From: Clostridiales bacterium
GTDB taxonomy: Bacteria > Bacillota > Clostridia > Christensenellales > Pumilibacteraceae
Direction: 5' to 3'
Assembly: GCA_015055625.1 (NCBI GenBank)
Contig: SVHU01000002.1
Location: 62,001-126,000, forward strand
Length of the DNA: 64,000 bases
Shown here: positions 1,381-57,826 of the stretch, one piece after another
Numbering within the stretch: the first letter of the stretch is position 1
Layout of the letters: every line of letters starts with the position of its first letter
The notes under the pieces: generated by a model
The model's input: only the letters and a program-made list of their open reading frames with translations
Databases searched by the model: none
Told to the model about the DNA's origin: nothing
Translations under genes and position numbers: made by a program

Positions 1381-1612
1381 GTGGGCAGACCCACTGTCAA
1401 TATGAGGGCGGTGGGCAGACCCACTGTCAACATGAAGAGCTGACGATAAATATTTACCAATGTTTACTCAAAGCACAACATTTCGGATCCAACGGTGCGG
1501 AGGCGCACTGCCGATATGAGGGGGCGATTCGTGAATCGGTGCGTAGGCGCACTCCCAAGCAGACCCACTGTCAATATAAGGGCGATTCGTGAATCGGTGC
1601 GTACAGCAAGTT
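1381..1612. repeat. Mosaic array of short hairpin cassettes (repeat island 1)
   Basis: Several short inverted repeats are strung together. Cassette A, GTGGGCAGACCCAC, occurs at 1381-1394 and 1411-1424. A variant with arms GTGCG/CGCAC occurs at 1495-1508 and 1539-1552. Cassette B, CGATTCGTGAATCG, occurs at 1525-1538 and again near 1582-1595. The linkers (TGTCAATATGAGG-like) are also repeated. The same cassettes recur near 32.4-32.7 kb. The arm changes G-C to C-G on both sides, so the hairpin is kept although the sequence drifts. No coding frame here has a credible start and product. The 638 bases between the DUF1385-PrmC gene and rpmE hold only these repeats, the next two elements and the rpmE terminator. 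Confidence 0.85.
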
Positions 1613-1640: not shown

Positions 1641-1682
1641 TTTACTCAAAGCACAACATATTGGATCCAACGTCCACGTTGG
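1641..1682. repeat. Interspersed repeat with terminal hairpin
   Basis: The block beginning ACTCAAAGCACAACATATTGG ends in a perfect hairpin, CCAACGT-CC-ACGTTGG (1667-1682). A related block without the hairpin lies at 1461-1493, and another at 32767-32802 ends in GCAACGT-C-ACGTTGC, where the basal pair is swapped from C-G to G-C. It sits between the hairpin cassettes and the duplicated structured element, so it belongs to the same repeat island. Confidence 0.75.
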
Positions 1683-1782
1683 TGCGAGCAAGACAAAGAT
1701 TTACACGTTCTTGCGCAGGGCGTGTGCTAGGCGCACACAACCAAGTAAGGTTGTGGAAATATGCTGTATTGCGAAGTAAATA
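1683..1782. repeat. Structured 100-bp element, copy 1 (candidate RNA)
   Basis: This block is identical over 100 bases to 1799-1898 (period 116). Its core at 1703-1756 can fold into a long hairpin: CAC/GTG, a GTT/GTT internal loop, CTTGC/GTAAG, an asymmetric internal loop GCAGGGC/AACCAA, then GTGTGC/GCACAC closed by TAGGC. A diverged copy near 52.3 kb has the same loops but different, still complementary, helices. The strand of any RNA is unknown; the fold is symmetric enough to work on either. No protein frame is convincing. It does not match any repeat or ribozyme consensus I could recall. Confidence 0.8.
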
Positions 1783-1798
1783 GCTATGACGGCTTAGT

Positions 1799-1898
1799 TG
1801 CGAGCAAGACAAAGATTTACACGTTCTTGCGCAGGGCGTGTGCTAGGCGCACACAACCAAGTAAGGTTGTGGAAATATGCTGTATTGCGAAGTAAATA
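1799..1898. repeat. Structured 100-bp element, copy 2 (tandem duplicate)
   Basis: An exact 100-base copy of 1683-1782, separated from it by a 16-base spacer. The foldable core is at 1819-1872. Perfect identity implies a recent duplication or gene conversion, because the rest of the island is diverged. Confidence 0.85.
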
Positions 1899-1923
1899 AG
1901 GCGTCATAATGGCGTTATAATAA

Positions 1924-1981: not shown

Positions 1982-2185
1982 TTATCTTGCGCGACGACGA
2001 TTAAACTTGTCGATACGTCCACCGGTTTCTACCTGCTTCTGCTTACCGGTATAGAAAGGATGACACTTAGAGCAAACGTCTACCTTAAGAACGTCGCCCT
2101 TTTTAGTAGATCCTGTTACGAAAGTAGCGCCACATGCGCAAACTGCGGTAACCTCATGATAATCGGGATGTATATTCTGTTTCAT
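1982..2185 (-). CDS. rpmE: 50S ribosomal protein L31
   Basis: A 67-residue protein beginning [19 protein letters not shown], the standard start of bacterial L31. It keeps the zinc-ribbon cysteines: Cys16 and Cys18 in CACG, and Cys38 and Cys41 in [11 protein letters not shown], so it is the zinc-binding (C+) paralogue type. L31 bridges the ribosomal subunits. An AAGGAG site lies 8 bases before the ATG. It has its own promoter and terminator and lies just downstream of dnaA in the same direction. Length is normal for the family. Confidence 0.97.
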
Positions 2186-32291: not shown

Positions 32292-32390
32292 AGCTCGTAA
32301 TGACAGGGGGAAAGGAATAATTGCAGAAAAAAGCTCGCAATGACAGGGGGAAAGGAATAATTGCAGAAAAAAGCTCATAATGACGTTGTG
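32292..32390. repeat. 40-bp tandem repeat
   Basis: A unit that begins AGCTCGTAATGACAGGGGG and ends in an A-rich stretch is repeated with period 40 at 32292, 32332 and 32372 (third copy partial). The bases before it (GAGATTACTTCGC) resemble a widespread bacterial intergenic palindrome family, so this is probably a remnant of such an element with internal duplication. Confidence 0.8.
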
Positions 32391-32436
32391 GGGAGAAAAC
32401 AATTATTAAAGTGAACTATATTGGCTGTAATATTTC

Positions 32437-32456
32437 GGGCGATTCGTGAATCGCCC
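32437..32456. repeat. Hairpin cassette B, complete copy
   Basis: GGGCGATTCGTGAATCGCCC is a perfect 20-base palindrome-like hairpin followed by CCTACAT. The same cassette recurs at 32710-32729 and, without the outer pairs, within the array. Confidence 0.85.
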
Positions 32457-32491
32457 CTACATCTATACCGTATACGGATTAGCCACGCCTG

Positions 32492-32558
32492 GTCATTTCG
32501 AGCGGTAAGCCTAGGAATCTCTTGGGATCTCTCCGCGCGCTACGCTTCGGTCGAGATG
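32492..32558. repeat. Dispersed palindromic element of the GTCATTTCGAG...CTCGAGATG type
   Basis: The element starts GTCATTTCGAGCGG and ends GCTTCGGTCGAGATGG, with imperfect terminal complementarity and an inner GGAATCTC/GGGATCTC pair. It resembles a palindromic repeat family that I recall from intergenic regions of many bacteria. No coding content. Confidence 0.6.
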
Positions 32559-32729
32559 GTGGGCAGACCCACTGCCAATATGAAAGTTGCTGTAATTCGG
32601 GCGATTCGTGAATCGGTGGGCAGACCCACTGTCAATATGAGAGTTGCTGTAATTCGGGCGATTCGTGAATCGGTGGGCAGACCCACTGTCAATATGGTTG
32701 TAATATTTCGGGCGATTCGTGAATCGCCC
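32559..32729. repeat. 57-bp tandem array of hairpin cassettes (repeat island 2)
   Basis: Cassette A (GTGGGCAGACCCAC) occurs at 32559, 32616 and 32673, an exact 57-base period. Each is followed by TGTCAATATGA-like sequence, GTTGCTGTAATTC and cassette B (CGATTCGTGAATCG), the last of which (32710-32729) is the full GGGCGATTCGTGAATCGCCC. Downstream at 32767-32802 is the AAAGTACAACATATTGG block with a GCAACGT/ACGTTGC hairpin. The 849 bases between proS and the MATE gene contain only repeats and the proS terminator; no gene is supported. Confidence 0.88.
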
Positions 32730-33002
32730 CTACATAAGAACTAACGGTTTCTAATTGTTTGCTTTGCTAAAGTACAACATATTGGATGCAACGTCACGTT
32801 GCTTCGTGAATCGCCCCTACATCATAACTAATAAACTATTAGCTTTTACTTTAATAAACAATATATCTAAGGAACACTTCGCTCCGTTTGCGTCGGTCAA
32901 CAAGTGAAAATCTTACGCAAATATTTTTTTATCAACTAATTGACAAACACTATATATTATTATAGAATAATAGAAACCAAAAAACAAATAGGAGAATATC
33001 GC

Positions 33003-41360: not shown

Positions 41361-41630
41361 AAAAAAACTGCGCATCCGTTGTTGTCACCTTACACAATAC
41401 CGCCTCCCCACCAGTTAGCTCCACCGAAGCTACCCTGTGGCACACGTTACGGTCTACTTAGTGCTGCTACATCACATCCTGACACGGTTCATAGTGCAAC
41501 GTTGCACAAGACCCCGGGATCATCACCACTTAGTGGTAACTGCATACCATATAAGATGCCTAGACGGCCTTCAGCCTTACTGTAGCGGATTGTAAGAAGA
41601 GGGCACCGCTAGCTCCCCGCCTAGCGCAGT
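41361..41630 (-). ncRNA. ffs: Signal recognition particle RNA, large bacterial (Bacillus) type
   Basis: On the minus strand about 270 bases from the predicted start near 41630 to a T-run at 41367-41360. The 5' part (GGCGGGGAGCTAGCGGTGCC, then ACAATCCGCTACAG and GGCTGAA) is the Alu domain of large SRP RNAs. The S-domain has CCGTGTCAGG and AGCAGCACTAAGTAGA, and TGTGCCACAGGGTAGC returns on the 3' side. It scaffolds Ffh for targeting of membrane and secreted proteins. The apical part between CAGG and AGCAGC is only AUGUGAUGU, not the usual stable GNRA hairpin. Confidence 0.93.
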
Positions 41631-46156: not shown

Positions 46157-48547
46157 TTAGATAACCAACGACTCGGTGTTAGATCCGATTGTAAAATCGT
46201 ATTCCCCTGAAGTTAGTCCGTTCACAATCAAAATCGAGTTTGCTTGCTTTGTAAGAGTTGTTTCAAATACAGCAACACCATCTTTTTTGATTGAAATCGT
46301 AGTTCCTACACTTAGCATTTTGTCAAGCGCAATTAGTAAACTTTTTGATGTTACGCTACTAAAGTTTACTGCTTTATCTTTGAGCGCTACTGCTCCTATT
46401 TTTCCGCCAGTTACTATTGCTGTTCCGTTATAATTGAGCACTTTAGCGCCAAGCGACGAACCAACTATTGAAAGTTCTCCTCCCGAAATTTTAACGTTAC
46501 CTTTACTATCAAGCGCATTATCTTCCACATCCAAGCTAATTGTTCCGCCCGCTATATTTATAAAGCATGCATGATCGTTTGCAACAGGTGTAGTGGTAGT
46601 TTCATTTATACTATCTCCCACTTCTTCTGTTGCCTTAAGACCGTCTTGCACTGACTTAATCGTAACCGTTCCGCTCTTTATCGTAACTGATTCGCCCTTA
46701 AGTCCGTCCGAGCAAACAAGCGAAGTGATTGTAGCATTATCTACAACTATTGCCTTATCCACGTCGATAGCATCTTTATTTGACGAAAGGTTTAATACGC
46801 CACCGCCTATATGAACTGACGAAGATCCGTGAAGAGCATCCTCACTTGCATCAATGGTAATGCTTCCACCGCTTATAAACATATCACCCGTTGCCTTAAT
46901 GCCCTTTGCAGACGTTAGTAACGGATCAGAAACAACAGTACTTCCACCACCTGACTTGATATTAATAGTTCCGCCAAGCACCTCAAAAGCTCCGCTAGCT
47001 TGTATTCCGTCCTTTTTAGACGTAATATTAAGCGATCCGCTGTTCATAAAGAAGTATCCCTTAGTTGCATCTTCGAGATTTTCTATTGTTGCACCATCGT
47101 TGTTTACAGACGTTAACGTTACGTTTGCATTCGTTATACTAAAGCAATCGTTTGCATCAATAGCTCTTGCAGTTGCGTTTACAGTAAGCGTACCGCCTGT
47201 TACTCTAAGATTATCCTTTGCAACGATACCCTTTTTAACGCTTGTTATAGTCAAACTTCCGCTTCCCTTAATTGTAAGATTAGCTCTTGTAAAAATGGTA
47301 GCGTCTACTCCATCTTCATCAGTTTCGGGAAATGCTCCAGTAGAATCAAACGAGTTTTCCCCCTCTAAGTACAAGAACACTTTCTTTGCGCTCTTTACGT
47401 ACAAAGGAGCTTTTCCGTTGTTAGTAAGTTTTGCATTTTGCAAAACAATGTATACATTATCGGATTTTACGGTATCATTTACTACTATTTGAGCTGTTGA
47501 AGTTATCTTGGAATTACCCTTGATATAATACGAACCTGCAGAACTTATTGTGATAACACCGCTAGAATCCACTTTTGCATTTGCGCCGTTAGAAGTTGCT
47601 CCACTTGCCGATAGCGTTACCGTTACGGGGCTTATTGGAGTGTGGCTTGCTTCTAAATCCTTATTAGAGAAAGCATCAGCCTCTAAGGGCACGTTTACTA
47701 AAGCTGGGTATGCTGTGTTTAGCGTTGGAATACCAGTATTTCCTACAACGGAAGTAGTAAAGGTAAACTTGGGTTTGTGGATAATAAAAGTTGCGGTAAG
47801 TACTCTATCCTGATATCCATCTAAGCTGATTGTGGCAACAACCTCATACTCGCCCTCTTCCGTAACTCCGTCTGTGTTTATACCATTATACGTGTACTTT
47901 ACGCTTGCGCCTTGTGGCAAGCCTTCGACTTGAAGCGAATGTTTTTGTCCGTCGTAAATAATTGTATCGCCTTTTAACGAAACGCCTATTATTTCGTCTT
48001 TTTGAGCAATCAACAATGTTGCGAAAAGGTTTTTAGTTTTATACCCCTTTTTAGAAACAACAGCCATAACGTCATAGCTACCAATCTCAACAGCTCCATC
48101 TATTCTTTCGCCGTTATAAGTATAAATTATGGTTGCCCCCTCTGGCGCACCCTCGACTTGAAGCGAATGTTTTTGTCCGTCATAAACAAATTCTTTATTG
48201 TCTAGTCTTATACCAACCATTTCTTGTGGTTCTAAAATCGTAAGCGTTGCAGTAAGAGTTTTCGTTGTGTAACCGGATTTACTCACCTTTGCTACAACAT
48301 CGTACACACCCTCTTCCATAACCCCGTCGGCTTTTATTCCATTAAACGTGTATGACACGCTTGCGCCGTCAATTAATCCGTCCACTTCTAGCGTATATTT
48401 ATCGCCAGTATAAACTACGGTTTTATCATCCATCGACAAGCCTGAAAACTGCTTAGAGGACGACGAACACGCAAAAACTGGCGCGCACGCGATTGCAAGC
48501 GCTATTAACGAACATAATATTATTTGCCAAAACTTATTTCTTTTCAT
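46157..48547 (-). CDS. Secreted carbohydrate-binding/beta-helix lipoprotein (DUF4353-like) with three N-terminal repeats
   Basis: A 796-residue exported protein. The signal peptide (residues 1-26) ends VFAC, a possible lipobox with Cys27. Three repeats of about 75 residues follow (about 36-108, 111-185, 187-262), each with V-Y-x-G-x-K/H-x-L-x-V-x-G, Y-x-Y/F-N-G and G-x-Y-x-V-x-A-x-V-S, resembling MBG/Ig-like surface modules. From about 285 a long region rich in VTLSASGA, KGSGSLTIT, ITSKKDGIQASG and GGTINIKSGGG steps looks like a right-handed beta-helix as in DUF4353 proteins. It lies downstream of DUF4956 and VTC genes, a grouping seen in other Clostridia. Likely anchored outside the membrane; role unknown. 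Confidence 0.85.
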   Translation of the reverse strand: MKRNKFWQIILCSLIALAIACAPVFACSSSSKQFSGLSMDDKTVVYTGDKYTLEVDGLIDGASVSYTFNGIKADGVMEEGVYDVVAKVSKSGYTTKTLTATLTILEPQEMVGIRLDNKEFVYDGQKHSLQVEGAPEGATIIYTYNGERIDGAVEIGSYDVMAVVSKKGYKTKNLFATLLIAQKDEIIGVSLKGDTIIYDGQKHSLQVEGLPQGASVKYTYNGINTDGVTEEGEYEVVATISLDGYQDRVLTATFIIHKPKFTFTTSVVGNTGIPTLNTAYPALVNVPLEADAFSNKDLEASHTPISPVTVTLSASGATSNGANAKVDSSGVITISSAGSYYIKGNSKITSTAQIVVNDTVKSDNVYIVLQNAKLTNNGKAPLYVKSAKKVFLYLEGENSFDSTGAFPETDEDGVDATIFTRANLTIKGSGSLTITSVKKGIVAKDNLRVTGGTLTVNATARAIDANDCFSITNANVTLTSVNNDGATIENLEDATKGYFFMNSGSLNITSKKDGIQASGAFEVLGGTINIKSGGGSTVVSDPLLTSAKGIKATGDMFISGGSITIDASEDALHGSSSVHIGGGVLNLSSNKDAIDVDKAIVVDNATITSLVCSDGLKGESVTIKSGTVTIKSVQDGLKATEEVGDSINETTTTPVANDHACFINIAGGTISLDVEDNALDSKGNVKISGGELSIVGSSLGAKVLNYNGTAIVTGGKIGAVALKDKAVNFSSVTSKSLLIALDKMLSVGTTISIKKDGVAVFETTLTKQANSILIVNGLTSGEYDFTIGSNTESLVI

Positions 48548-52183: not shown

Positions 52184-52271
52184 AATGTTGTTAATATTGT
52201 TTTGAATTTGAAATTAAGAATAACTAAAAGTTAAGTTTTGCTTCAGTAGGCACACCCAAAAAAAAGGATTT

Positions 52272-52370
52272 ATTGCGAGTTAGAGAAGCAAACGAGGTTC
52301 TACCTGCAGGGCGTGTACTTAGCGTACACAACCAAAGGTAGGTTCTCGCTTGCGCACTATAACGACGCAA
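52272..52370. repeat. Structured element, diverged copy 3 (candidate RNA)
   Basis: This is related to 1683-1782. The core (52293-52348) folds as CGAG/CTCG, GTT/GTT loop, CTACCT/AGGTAG, loop GCAGGGC/AACCAA, GTGTAC/GTACAC with loop TTAGC. All helices differ from the other copies by paired changes, while the internal loops are identical. An outer TTGCG/CGCAA pair is also possible. It sits in the 3' region of glgP. The 216-base gap otherwise holds only the hairpin before GH13. Confidence 0.78.
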
Positions 52371-52381
52371 GAAAGACTTTT

Positions 52382-54796
52382 TTATTCTTCTACGGTTTCT
52401 AAGTTCCAGATATTCTTAGCATACTCGCGAATACTTCTGTCAGATGCAAAAATTCCGGACTTTGCAATGTTGTTAAGAGCCATCTTGTTCCAACGCTGTT
52501 TGTCGGCATACGCTTTATCCATATCGGTATAAGCGCGCATATAGTCGCCAAAATCCTTAAGACACATATAGGGATCTGCAACGAAGTTAGAACCAGTTAC
52601 AAGATAGGATGCAATATCAGCAAAGGACTGACCTGCAAAACCGATATTAAGCGCGTCGATAATTCTACGAAGTCTGGGCGAAGAAGAATACAATGCTGAT
52701 GCGTTGTAGCCTTGCTTCCACTGTTCGTCAACCTCGTGCGACTTAAGACCAAAGGTAAAGATATTGTCGTTGCCTACGTTTTCCATAATTTCTACGTTTG
52801 CGCCGTCTACCGTACCTAAAGTGATTGCACCGTTAAGCATAAACTTCATGTTAGAAGTTCCACTCGCTTCCTTTCCTGCAAGCGAGATTTGTTCGCTGAT
52901 TTCGGAAGCGGGAATAAGGTGTTCGGCCTTTGTTACGTTGTAGTTTTCTACAAAGTAAACGTCAAGTTTATCTTTGATATTCTTTTGACTTCTAATCTCT
53001 TGAGAAAGACAATTAATAAGGCAAATTATACGCTTTGCGTGATAGTATCCGCCTGCCGCCTTTGCTCCGAAGATAAAGGTTTGTGGGGTAACTTCCTTGT
53101 TGGGATTTTCCTTAATATCAATATAAAGATCAATTATCTTAAGCACGTTAAGAAGCTGTCTTTTATACTCGTGAAGACGCTTGATCTGAGTGTCAAATCT
53201 AGAGTTAGGATTGAGCGTTACACCCATAGTCTTTTTAACGTACTTAGCGAAATCATCCTTATTGCTCTGCTTAATTTGACCGATTTTCTCGAGTACGTTT
53301 GCGTCATTTTCGAACTCAAGAAGCTTTATGAGCTGGCTTGCGTCCTTTTTGTAACCGTCGCCGATAAGAGAATCGATAAACTTAGTAAGAGCAGGGTTTG
53401 CCTGACAAAGCCATCTTCTGTGAGCAATACCGTTTGTAACGTTGGTAAAGCGAAGAGGAAGAATGTCGTGGAAATCCTTGAATACGCTGTCCTTGATTAT
53501 CTCGGAATGAAGAGCGGATACGCCGTTAATGGAGTGAGAACCGATAACTGATAGGTTAGCCATTCTTACCTGACCGTTGCCAAGAACGCACATTCTTGCA
53601 ATCTTGTCTTCGTAGCAGTCGGTATGCTCTCCGCAAAATCTTGCGTCAATTTCCTTGATAATCTTGTATATACGGGGAAGTCTTGTCTTAACAAGATCCT
53701 CGCCCCACTTTTCCAAAGCTTCAGCCATAACCGTGTGGTTGGTGTAAGCAATGGTGTTTATAGTCATATACCACGCTCTCTCCCAAGCATATCCATACTC
53801 GTCCAAAAGCAGACGCATCATTTCGGGAATTGCAAGAGCAGGGTGTGTATCGTTAATGTGAATAGCAACTTTTTCGTGAATATTATCAAGCGTTCCGTAT
53901 ACTTTGAGGTGATCCTTGAAAATGGACTGCAAGCTTGCGCTACAAAGGAAATACTGCTGTGTAAGACGAAGCTGTTTTCCCTCGAAGTGATCGTCGGAAG
54001 GATAGAGAACTTTGGTTATAAGCTGAGCTTCATTCTCCGCTCTCATAGCCGTTACGTAGTCGCCTTGCGTGAACGACTTCATATCGAAAGTATTTTGCGT
54101 GGTTGCTCTCCATAAACGGAGAACTGAAACGCCGTTACTATCATATCCGCTAGTCATAACGTCACATGGAATTGCTTCTACTACCGTTGCATCAACGTGC
54201 TCAGTCTTTAGCTTTCCGCTTTCCCAATGTTCGATAACTCTTCCGCCAAACTTTACGGTAAAGTGCTTGTCGGATCTAGGCATCATCCAAGCTTCTCCGC
54301 TGTCAAGCCATAAATCGGGAAGCTCAACCTGCTGATTATCTACTATCTTTTGCTTAAAAAGTCCATACTCATAACGAAGCGAGAATCCCATCGCAGGGTA
54401 GTTTTCGGTTGCAAGAGCGTCCATAAAGCACGCTGCAAGTCTACCAAGACCGCCGTTACCCAAGCCAGCGTCAGACTCAAGTTCATACATCTCGTCAAGA
54501 TCGGTTCCAAAGCCCTTAAGAGCTTTTCTGAACTTGCTTTCAATGCCAAGATTAAAAAGATTGTTTCTCAAGCTTCTTCCGATAAGGAATTCCATGCAAA
54601 GGTAATAAACGCGCTTTTTCTGCTTTCTTGCAATCTCCGCGTTATTTACCTGTTTTTTCTTAAGCAAAATGTCACGAATTACAATAACTGCAGCCTTGTA
54701 CATTTGCATAGGCGTTGCGTTTTTGTGTGACGTTGCAAAATACTTAGTTAGTTTGTCTTCGATTAGTTCTTGAATTTTTGTTATAGTTATATCCAT
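52382..54796 (-). CDS. glgP: Glycogen/starch phosphorylase
   Basis: An 804-residue GT35 enzyme releasing glucose-1-phosphate from glycogen ends. It has the RVYYLCMEFLIGRSLRNNLFNLG start, NGGLGRLAACFMDALA, the IKRLHEYKRQLLN segment and, near the C-terminus, the PLP-lysine motif EASGTSNMKFMLNGAITLGTVDGANVEI. Length is normal. It follows glgA on the minus strand, in a biosynthesis-plus-degradation cluster. Confidence 0.97.
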   Translation of the reverse strand: MDITITKIQELIEDKLTKYFATSHKNATPMQMYKAAVIVIRDILLKKKQVNNAEIARKQKKRVYYLCMEFLIGRSLRNNLFNLGIESKFRKALKGFGTDLDEMYELESDAGLGNGGLGRLAACFMDALATENYPAMGFSLRYEYGLFKQKIVDNQQVELPDLWLDSGEAWMMPRSDKHFTVKFGGRVIEHWESGKLKTEHVDATVVEAIPCDVMTSGYDSNGVSVLRLWRATTQNTFDMKSFTQGDYVTAMRAENEAQLITKVLYPSDDHFEGKQLRLTQQYFLCSASLQSIFKDHLKVYGTLDNIHEKVAIHINDTHPALAIPEMMRLLLDEYGYAWERAWYMTINTIAYTNHTVMAEALEKWGEDLVKTRLPRIYKIIKEIDARFCGEHTDCYEDKIARMCVLGNGQVRMANLSVIGSHSINGVSALHSEIIKDSVFKDFHDILPLRFTNVTNGIAHRRWLCQANPALTKFIDSLIGDGYKKDASQLIKLLEFENDANVLEKIGQIKQSNKDDFAKYVKKTMGVTLNPNSRFDTQIKRLHEYKRQLLNVLKIIDLYIDIKENPNKEVTPQTFIFGAKAAGGYYHAKRIICLINCLSQEIRSQKNIKDKLDVYFVENYNVTKAEHLIPASEISEQISLAGKEASGTSNMKFMLNGAITLGTVDGANVEIMENVGNDNIFTFGLKSHEVDEQWKQGYNASALYSSSPRLRRIIDALNIGFAGQSFADIASYLVTGSNFVADPYMCLKDFGDYMRAYTDMDKAYADKQRWNKMALNNIAKSGIFASDRSIREYAKNIWNLETVEE

Positions 54797-56502: not shown

Positions 56503-56549
56503 ATATATTCTCCTTATAAAAGTGTAATGCTATTTTTTATACTAGGCTA

Positions 56550-56700
56550 GGTCACAATAAACGGTTGATTAATTTTATGATTTAACGAGGAAAACACAAG
56601 ACAGACAAGTGTTATTGCAAGGACGCATACCTGCATAGTCTGTAACCGCGCAAAACGCGCAGTATTTCGTAGTGTTTTTCCGTTAAAAATCAACCGTATG
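56550..56700 (-). ncRNA. Candidate structured leader upstream of glgA
   Basis: On the minus strand, nested arms close a region of about 150 bases: ACGGTTGAT (56697-56689) with ATCAACCGT (56569-56561), then TTAACG with CGTTAA, then GAAAAACAC with GTGTTTTC. Inside are two or three small hairpins, one with GCGC-GTTTT-GCGC enclosed by CTG/CAG, another with TGCAGG/CCTTGCA. It lies between glgD and glgA, starting 14 bases past the glgD stop and ending about 45 bases before the glgA ATG. It matches no riboswitch class I can name. Confidence 0.55.
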
Positions 56701-56713
56701 TTGGGACAGAGCC

Positions 56714-57826
56714 TTATACTATGGAATCCTTGGTAATAAAATACGGATGTGTGGGATGTCCGCTAAGAAGTCTTCCCTTTAGCACGTGAACTTGCTTGTC
56801 AGCAATTACGCAATTAAGCTGAGTTCCCTCGCCAACTTCCGTGTTTTGCATAAGAATAGAATCTTTTACTACCGCTCCTTTCGCTACGTGTACGCCACGG
56901 AAAAGAATGGAATTTATTACCTCGCCTTCAATTACGCAACCGTCCGCAATAAGCGAATTCTTAGCGCTTCCGCCCTCTTCGAATCTGCAAGGCGCGCTGT
57001 CGCGTACGTTTGTAAAGATTGCACCGCCCTCTCTGAACAAAGCATCGCGGTTTTCCTTTACTAAAAGCTCCATATTGTGCTTGTAATAGTTTGCAAGACT
57101 GTCAATGCTTGCGTAATATCCCGTGAACTCGTATCCGTAAATACGGTACATATCCACGCCCTTGATCATAACGTCACGCGAAAAGCTCGTATACTCTAAG
57201 TCTTCCGCATTTTCTAAGATGTTAAGCAAGAACAAACGGTTAATAACGAAAATGTTAGAGAACTTGTTTACTTCTACGTCGTGCTTTTTGCTGATAACAG
57301 TCTTAATAACTCTGCCGTCGTCGTCTAAAATAAACTGCGTTCTTACTTTGTTATCGTCGTTTGGAAGATATTTCTTTCTGTATACTACGGTGATATCTGC
57401 GTGCTTTTCGATATGGTACTCAATAACCTTTTGATAGTCGATATTACAAACGTTATCACAGTCGGTCATAACAACGTAATCTTCGTTGCAAGTCTTCAAA
57501 AATCCAATTGCATTAGAAAGGGCTTCAAATCTGGAGTTGTAAACCTTTGACTCTCTGTTTCCAAAAGGAGGAAGAATCATAACGCCACCATTTTTACGGG
57601 ATAAATCCCAACTCTTACCAGAGCCTACGTGATCCATAAGCGATTGGTAATTGCTCTTTGTTATTATACCCACCTTAGTGATCTCGGAGTTCGTCATATT
57701 GGAAAGAGCAAAGTCTACAAGACGATATCTGCATGCATACGGTACTGATGCAAGAGTTCTATTAGAGGTGAGCTCTTTTATTTCTTTATCGTGAATGTTG
57801 CTGAAAATAATACCTACTGTTTTCAT
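56714..57826 (-). CDS. glgD: Glucose-1-phosphate adenylyltransferase regulatory subunit GlgD
   Basis: A 370-residue nucleotidyltransferase-like protein with a left-handed beta-helix C-terminus. It begins [39 protein letters not shown]; the GGxGTRL pyrophosphorylase loop of GlgC is absent, as in GlgD subunits of Firmicutes, which modulate GlgC. The glgC stop overlaps its ATG by ATGA. Length is typical. Confidence 0.95.

Follow-up and report, generated by a model that had tools for sequence, protein, structure and literature searches.

Enterobacterial repetitive intergenic consensus (ERIC) elements, also named IRU or RU-1, have an orientation-dependent effect on mRNA stability (RNase E), and sequences of the REP/RAYT kind are palindromes tagged with GTAG/CGTC and accompanied by a linked RAYT gene. 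What mobilises ERIC and why its hairpin is conserved are standing questions in the available literature. The described hosts of ERIC are Enterobacteriaceae/Vibrionaceae (PMC10969869), and its termini are 5'-TA-3' with a target duplication (PMC2229807). REPs measure 20-40 nt (PMC3733652), and the pneumococcal SPRITE and RUP and the R-family repeats of P. fluorescens are MITE-like sequences of small size that form hairpins and are over-represented where two genes converge, co-option as a terminator having been suggested for SPRITE (PMC3049150, PMC2718517). The hairpins analysed in this work are, as a whole, best explained as MITEs, mobile DNA elements that are non-autonomous, belonging to an ERIC-like superfamily, a reading to which we assign a probability of about 0.78.

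The stretch analysed (the window) comprises 64,000 nt of the 2.5 Mb draft genome of a Clostridiales bacterium, in which an initial annotation had described an unrecognised structured element in three copies. Two of them are identical over 100 nt as described (1683-1782 and 1799-1898, starts 116 nt apart), and the diverged copy at 52272-52370 was also confirmed, with its helices as given. Nevertheless, the set was incomplete, as a fourth relative of a longer kind (type II) is present (Table 1). The hairpin at 52256-52386, which contains copy C, has a folding energy of -50.4 kcal/mol compared to -26.0 ± 3.2 kcal/mol for shuffled sequences (z = -7.6), far beyond chance. An Rfam scan of the window matched only an unrelated large bacterial SRP RNA (41368-41629, minus strand; RF01854, 149 bits), and no tRNA was found in it.

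Table 1. Elements and neighbouring genes in the window; R1 and R2 are the two covariance models described in the text.
Feature	Position	Strand	Basis
Copy A, ERIC-like element type I, in tandem with copy B	1678..1784	+	R1 92.5 bits, R2 85.4 bits
Copy B, ERIC-like element type I	1793..1900	+	R1 108.3 bits, R2 100.5 bits
Opposing neighbour of copies A and B, 67-aa protein	1982..2185	-	translation
Copy C, ERIC-like element type I, including the A/T-tract outer stem	52260..52383	+	R1 109.3 bits over 52268-52375; fold
Glycogen phosphorylase, opposing neighbour of copy C	52382..54796	-	PF00343, E 2e-297
Target-site duplication TTATACTA to the left of the type II element	56537..56544	.	exact 8-bp repeat in L295
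Type II element, 169-bp MITE (locus L295), same core at 56589-56680; ends GGCTAGGTCACAAT / TTGGGACAGAGCC	56545..56713	+	R2 40.8 bits; sequence
Target-site duplication TTATACTA to the right of the type II element; holds the opposing gene's stop codon (56714-56716)	56714..56721	.	sequence, exact 8-bp repeat in L295

In the own genome, a covariance model built from six copies (R1) matched 25 hairpins with scores of 51 bits or more and a further group scoring near 42 bits, whereas a plain sequence search recovered a handful. The genome holds a dispersed family of about 25 hairpins of the type I kind and about 20 longer relatives. R1 gave 31-32 matches in each of two congeners and more in other families of the order. 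An exact sequence pattern yielded true copies only within the same genus, so a structure-aware search was needed. Rfam, at both gathering and E-value thresholds, matched no family and gave no sensible sub-threshold match, in agreement with the initial annotation; a phage collection had no match to the element, and a literature search by consensus letters returned nothing relevant.

On the plus strand, the core consists in order of a variable outer stem (P1, flanked by A and T tracts in type I copies), a tandem G.A loop (CGA/GAH), a helix P2 of 6-7 bp, an AAGG/ACGCM loop, a helix P3 with arms of about 18-20 nt, a second tandem G.A loop (GGMG/RACC) and a helix P4 with an apical loop mostly of 5-6 nt. 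P1, P2 and P3 vary among copies while the loops are kept. P3 occupies 18-21 nt in nearly all 5' arms and its sequence is free, with a mean identity of 31% vs. 71% in the conserved blocks. The constants of the family are AAGG/ACGC, GGMG/RACC and the CGA/GAH loop; the GTT/GTT loop earlier taken as constant corresponds to G.U, U.U and U.G within a helix of about 18 bp and is missing from other copies.

The loop pattern GCAAGACAAGG...ACGCMGTATTGC matched Pseudomonas, Halomonas, Salinicola, Sideroxydans, Gallionella, Nitrosomonas, Desulfobacterales, a Lysobacterales MAG and many Clostridia. A second model of 80 sequences that included no enterobacterial member (R2) was run on 398 sampled genomes from the phylum of the window and on 398 from Pseudomonadota; at E <= 1e-4, relatives were found in 43 of the former and 62 of the latter. 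They also occur in Desulfobacterales. The phylum-wide counts are estimates, as long stems also score well under a hairpin model. The conserved loops were present at nearly all R2 loci listed, and about 30 loci were checked by eye. Judged from sequence, the same folded core is scattered over at least three bacterial phyla, and its carriers in Clostridia, Pseudomonas, Halomonadaceae, Gallionellaceae and Desulfobacterales lie far outside the range known for ERIC. Many relatives, which the initial annotation had proposed to seek with a covariance model in Clostridia, were found in the genome, in Clostridia and in further phyla.

The apical part of the core resembles that of ERIC, and R2 was therefore tested on enterobacteria. 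R2 ranked six enterobacterial ERIC loci first (E-values of 8.6e-9 in Enterobacter, 3e-8 and 3.4e-6 in Pantoea, 5.9e-5 in Klebsiella, 1.3e-3 in Rahnella and 3.4e-3 in E. coli), the best non-ERIC match having an E-value of 0.43. On 200 kb of E. coli K-12, assembled from four stretches of which one had been picked for an ERIC expected beside rpiA, R2 gave just two matches up to E = 10 (0.020 and 0.023); BLAST with ERIC identified both as ERICs and detected no third one there. The ERIC beside rpiA was absent from K-12, and the two that were matched sit elsewhere in the 200 kb. BLASTN between the window copies and ERIC reached a best E-value of 0.87 through 7-nt words only, with no recognisable nucleotide identity. 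Thus, an element that could not initially be matched to a known class belongs with ERIC according to a model blind to ERIC, through homology of the core. Of the two kinds of match that the initial annotation had set against a new structure, that to an insertion element largely came true, with ERIC, whereas none was found in Rfam. There is good support for placing the window hairpins, as a clostridial branch, in a superfamily of ERIC-like mobile hairpins that are non-autonomous. They are not assigned to ERIC sensu stricto, from which they depart in nucleotide identity and host range.

The ends of the elements support a mobile structured element, one of the options offered by the initial annotation. 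Type II copies of the own genome, including that of the window, measure 169-174 bp between the ends GGCTCTGTCCCAA and TTGTGACATAGCC, and 13 out of 15 are flanked by exact 8-bp duplications of the target (7 bp being exact in one of the 13). One type II derivative lacks the core but retains the ends and the duplication. Copies ended by GAGGGTGTTTACAAA, nearly all from Salinicola, have exact 3-bp TNA duplications in 13 of 17 cases; a Salinicola genome also has TAGGGTTTGTACGAAAAG-type ends around the core, and Pseudomonas copies have TAGCAGGCCGTTGAAAAAC ends at TA/YTAR. In type I copies, TA was seen at both ends in several loci, by inspection and without a clean empty site. Type II and GAGGGTGTTTACAAA-ended copies have both the terminal inverted repeats and the target-site duplication by which a MITE is recognised. 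As one core is bounded by different ends and duplications (8 bp, 3-bp TNA and, by inspection, TA), the core constitutes a module distinct from the ends that take part in transposition. Copy C is absent from the corresponding site of congener G001, where an unrelated hairpin stands instead, and in congener G002 this site has a shredded remnant. An exact-end search for an autonomous element with type II ends returned just MITE copies, the unpaired ends in the own genome being contig ends, and no transposase with matching ends was found. In G002, the type II element is very abundant (about 40 places), often at contig ends, and probably breaks the assembly.

Other repeats were observed in and around these elements. 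A 26-nt hairpin repeat (GGTGGGCAGACCCACTGTCAATATGA and variants; window positions 1381-1436, 1495-1520, 1555-1580 and 32559-32698) likewise shows changes that compensate each other in the stem (GTGGGC/GACCCAC, GTGCG/CGCAC). At three loci of the own genome and a congener it interrupts the ERIC-like element or takes the place of one half of it, and it looks like a second, REP-like mobile unit. Four ERIC-like elements of Pseudomonas and Salinicola have 15-73 extra nt inside the hairpin, and a GGACCGGGCTGGCG-type insert recurs, perhaps as a further nested repeat. The window also contains a dense short-repeat cluster (32292-32822) with 40-nt tandem copies and GGGCGATTCGTGAATCGCCCCTACAT units, and a coding repeat (47866-48417) of three diverged copies at 228-nt spacing inside an ORF on the minus strand (46157-48547).

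Regarding placement, 66 of 146 copies have an opposing stop codon no more than 40 nt from their right end, compared to 12 of 146 for the mirror case at the left end, although not all 146 copies are independent. Copy C runs up to the stop codon of the glycogen phosphorylase gene, and that of the gene opposing the type II element (56714-57826) is inside the right target duplication. The protein opposing copies A and B is, by eye, presumably ribosomal protein L31 (rpmE); a terminator-like hairpin of rpmE itself is seen in the sequence between this gene and copy B, with both copies beyond it. At ERIC loci of Pantoea, Enterobacter and Rahnella, an opposing stop codon likewise lies against the right end. 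The elements could be non-mobile transcription terminators or 3'-end hairpins selected by the host and copied by ordinary duplication, in agreement with their convergent position directly behind stop codons and with the A/T tracts flanking the type I stem. However, proteobacterial copies occupy the same place without U tracts, many copies are flanked by the exact 8-bp and 3-bp duplications, and simple terminators would not need internal loops conserved phylum-wide, all of which makes this explanation improbable. A simple terminator scan gave no call at copy C, although TTTTTT follows its stem. The strand bias with respect to replication, examined by hand in complete Salinicola and Pseudomonas genomes with the origin assumed near base 1, was about even and gives no support to a lagging-strand-only role.

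The compensatory change in a conserved structure that had been noticed among the three copies proved genuine, with 39 out of 40 pairs varying on both sides among 101 aligned members. On these 101 distinct sequences the structure had a covariation score of 0.635, while shuffles scored 0.171 and slid versions 0.094 or less, although absolute values lean towards the structure because the alignment was fitted to the model. Regarding the molecule that pairs, the cells of P2 and P4 were Watson-Crick in 1065 cases, G.U in 2 and A.C in 3 (a single conserved G.U beside the apical loop being disregarded), P3 had G.U and A.C in equal amounts (69 vs. 70) and thus no strand preference, and P1 alone showed an RNA-like excess of G.U (48 vs. 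13 A.C). This pattern fits pairing at the DNA level at least as well as RNA, and so speaks against a selected RNA, one of the options of the initial annotation.

Alternatively, the elements could be independent regulatory RNAs of a new class, with transcription from the plus strand and dispersal by duplication. This would agree with the excess of G.U in P1, with the better folding of the plus strand as RNA in 63 of 71 copies and with its mismatches, which are overwhelmingly purine-purine (330 A.G, 24 C.T). Nevertheless, P2 and P4 switch between Watson-Crick pairs almost without G.U, P3 is indifferent to strand, many copies are flanked by target-site duplications, the gene upstream is frequently oriented away from the element, a search by eye showed no conserved promoter, and the mRNA of the neighbouring gene carries the minus strand of the element. 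An independent regulatory RNA is therefore not supported, and we consider it as improbable as the terminators.

Two internal-loop positions co-vary non-canonically, exchanging A.G with C.A: columns 30/158 have C.A in 62 sequences and A.G in 24, whereas columns 58/121 have A.G in 70 and C.A in 13. This joint exchange is what sheared-type pairs on the plus strand would allow, and it argues that a folded single strand matters, though not that this strand is RNA. It also bears on the idea that the compensatory changes come from quasi-palindrome correction, that is, hairpin-templated repair, and not from selection on the fold. The equal G.U and A.C of P3 and the almost exclusive Watson-Crick pairs of P2 and P4 are as templated correction would give, but such a process should erase mismatched loops, which are the best conserved parts of the element, and the two positions exchange together; this origin seems slightly less probable still than the two preceding alternatives.

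For mobile elements of the ERIC-like superfamily, the following course may be proposed. Host insertion-sequence transposases would act in trans on the terminal repeats and insert the elements at TA-containing or TNA sites; most of the insertions that persist would be those directly after a stop codon, since there the hairpin can replace or add to the 3' end of the gene, and type I copies, which have an A/T tract at either end, may serve as bidirectional terminators. The core could be kept because its plus strand folds into a hairpin with sheared G.A-type modules read by some factor, either as single-stranded or extruded DNA or as RNA of a 3'-UTR; our leading guess is that the folded plus strand is recognised by a putative host factor. 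A bolder view, put forward tentatively and with the odds somewhat against it, is that the ERIC core is an ancient hairpin module conserved in at least three phyla, with non-canonical pairs that co-vary in its tandem sheared-G.A loops, and carried by MITEs with unrelated ends (TA/YTAR, 3-bp TNA, 8-bp target duplications). A conserved host factor, and not any single transposase, would recognise it in the form of folded DNA, single-stranded or extruded, ERIC then being one branch of a general class of bacterial elements. The wide range provides hundreds of sequences for comparing essential positions, different ends and any partner protein. It is also a warning that hairpin searches in Clostridia and Pseudomonadota will catch these elements as apparent new RNAs or terminators.

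Among known systems, integron attC and HEARO were dropped because neither fits a variable outer stem plus core. REP/BIME sequences, associated with RAYT transposases, are likewise dispersed intergenic palindromes, but the elements described here measure about 110 nt or more, contain several internal loops and carry target duplications; their size argues against a REP/RAYT system, and a search for a protein partner revealed no recurring gene family around 80 loci from several phyla. SPRITE, RUP and the R-family share with this family the small, hairpin, MITE-like character and the convergent intergenic placement; SPRITE is by description an 18-bp duplex plus a U-rich tract, and no match to the core was established for any of the three. 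Compared to ERIC, the clostridial P3 is longer than that of E. coli, the R2 alignment of ERIC having a 7-nt gap in the 5' arm, and in contrast to the TA termini of ERIC, type I ends carry A/T tracts and type II has 8-bp duplications and other ends. Despite these differences, the family fits the single stem-loop of about 70-127 bp of ERIC, intergenic and multicopy, and both share a long imperfect hairpin with an apical GGAGC-TAC..GTA-GTGAC, GACAAG/AACGCAG loops in register and, at several loci, the abutting of an opposing stop codon in the same orientation.
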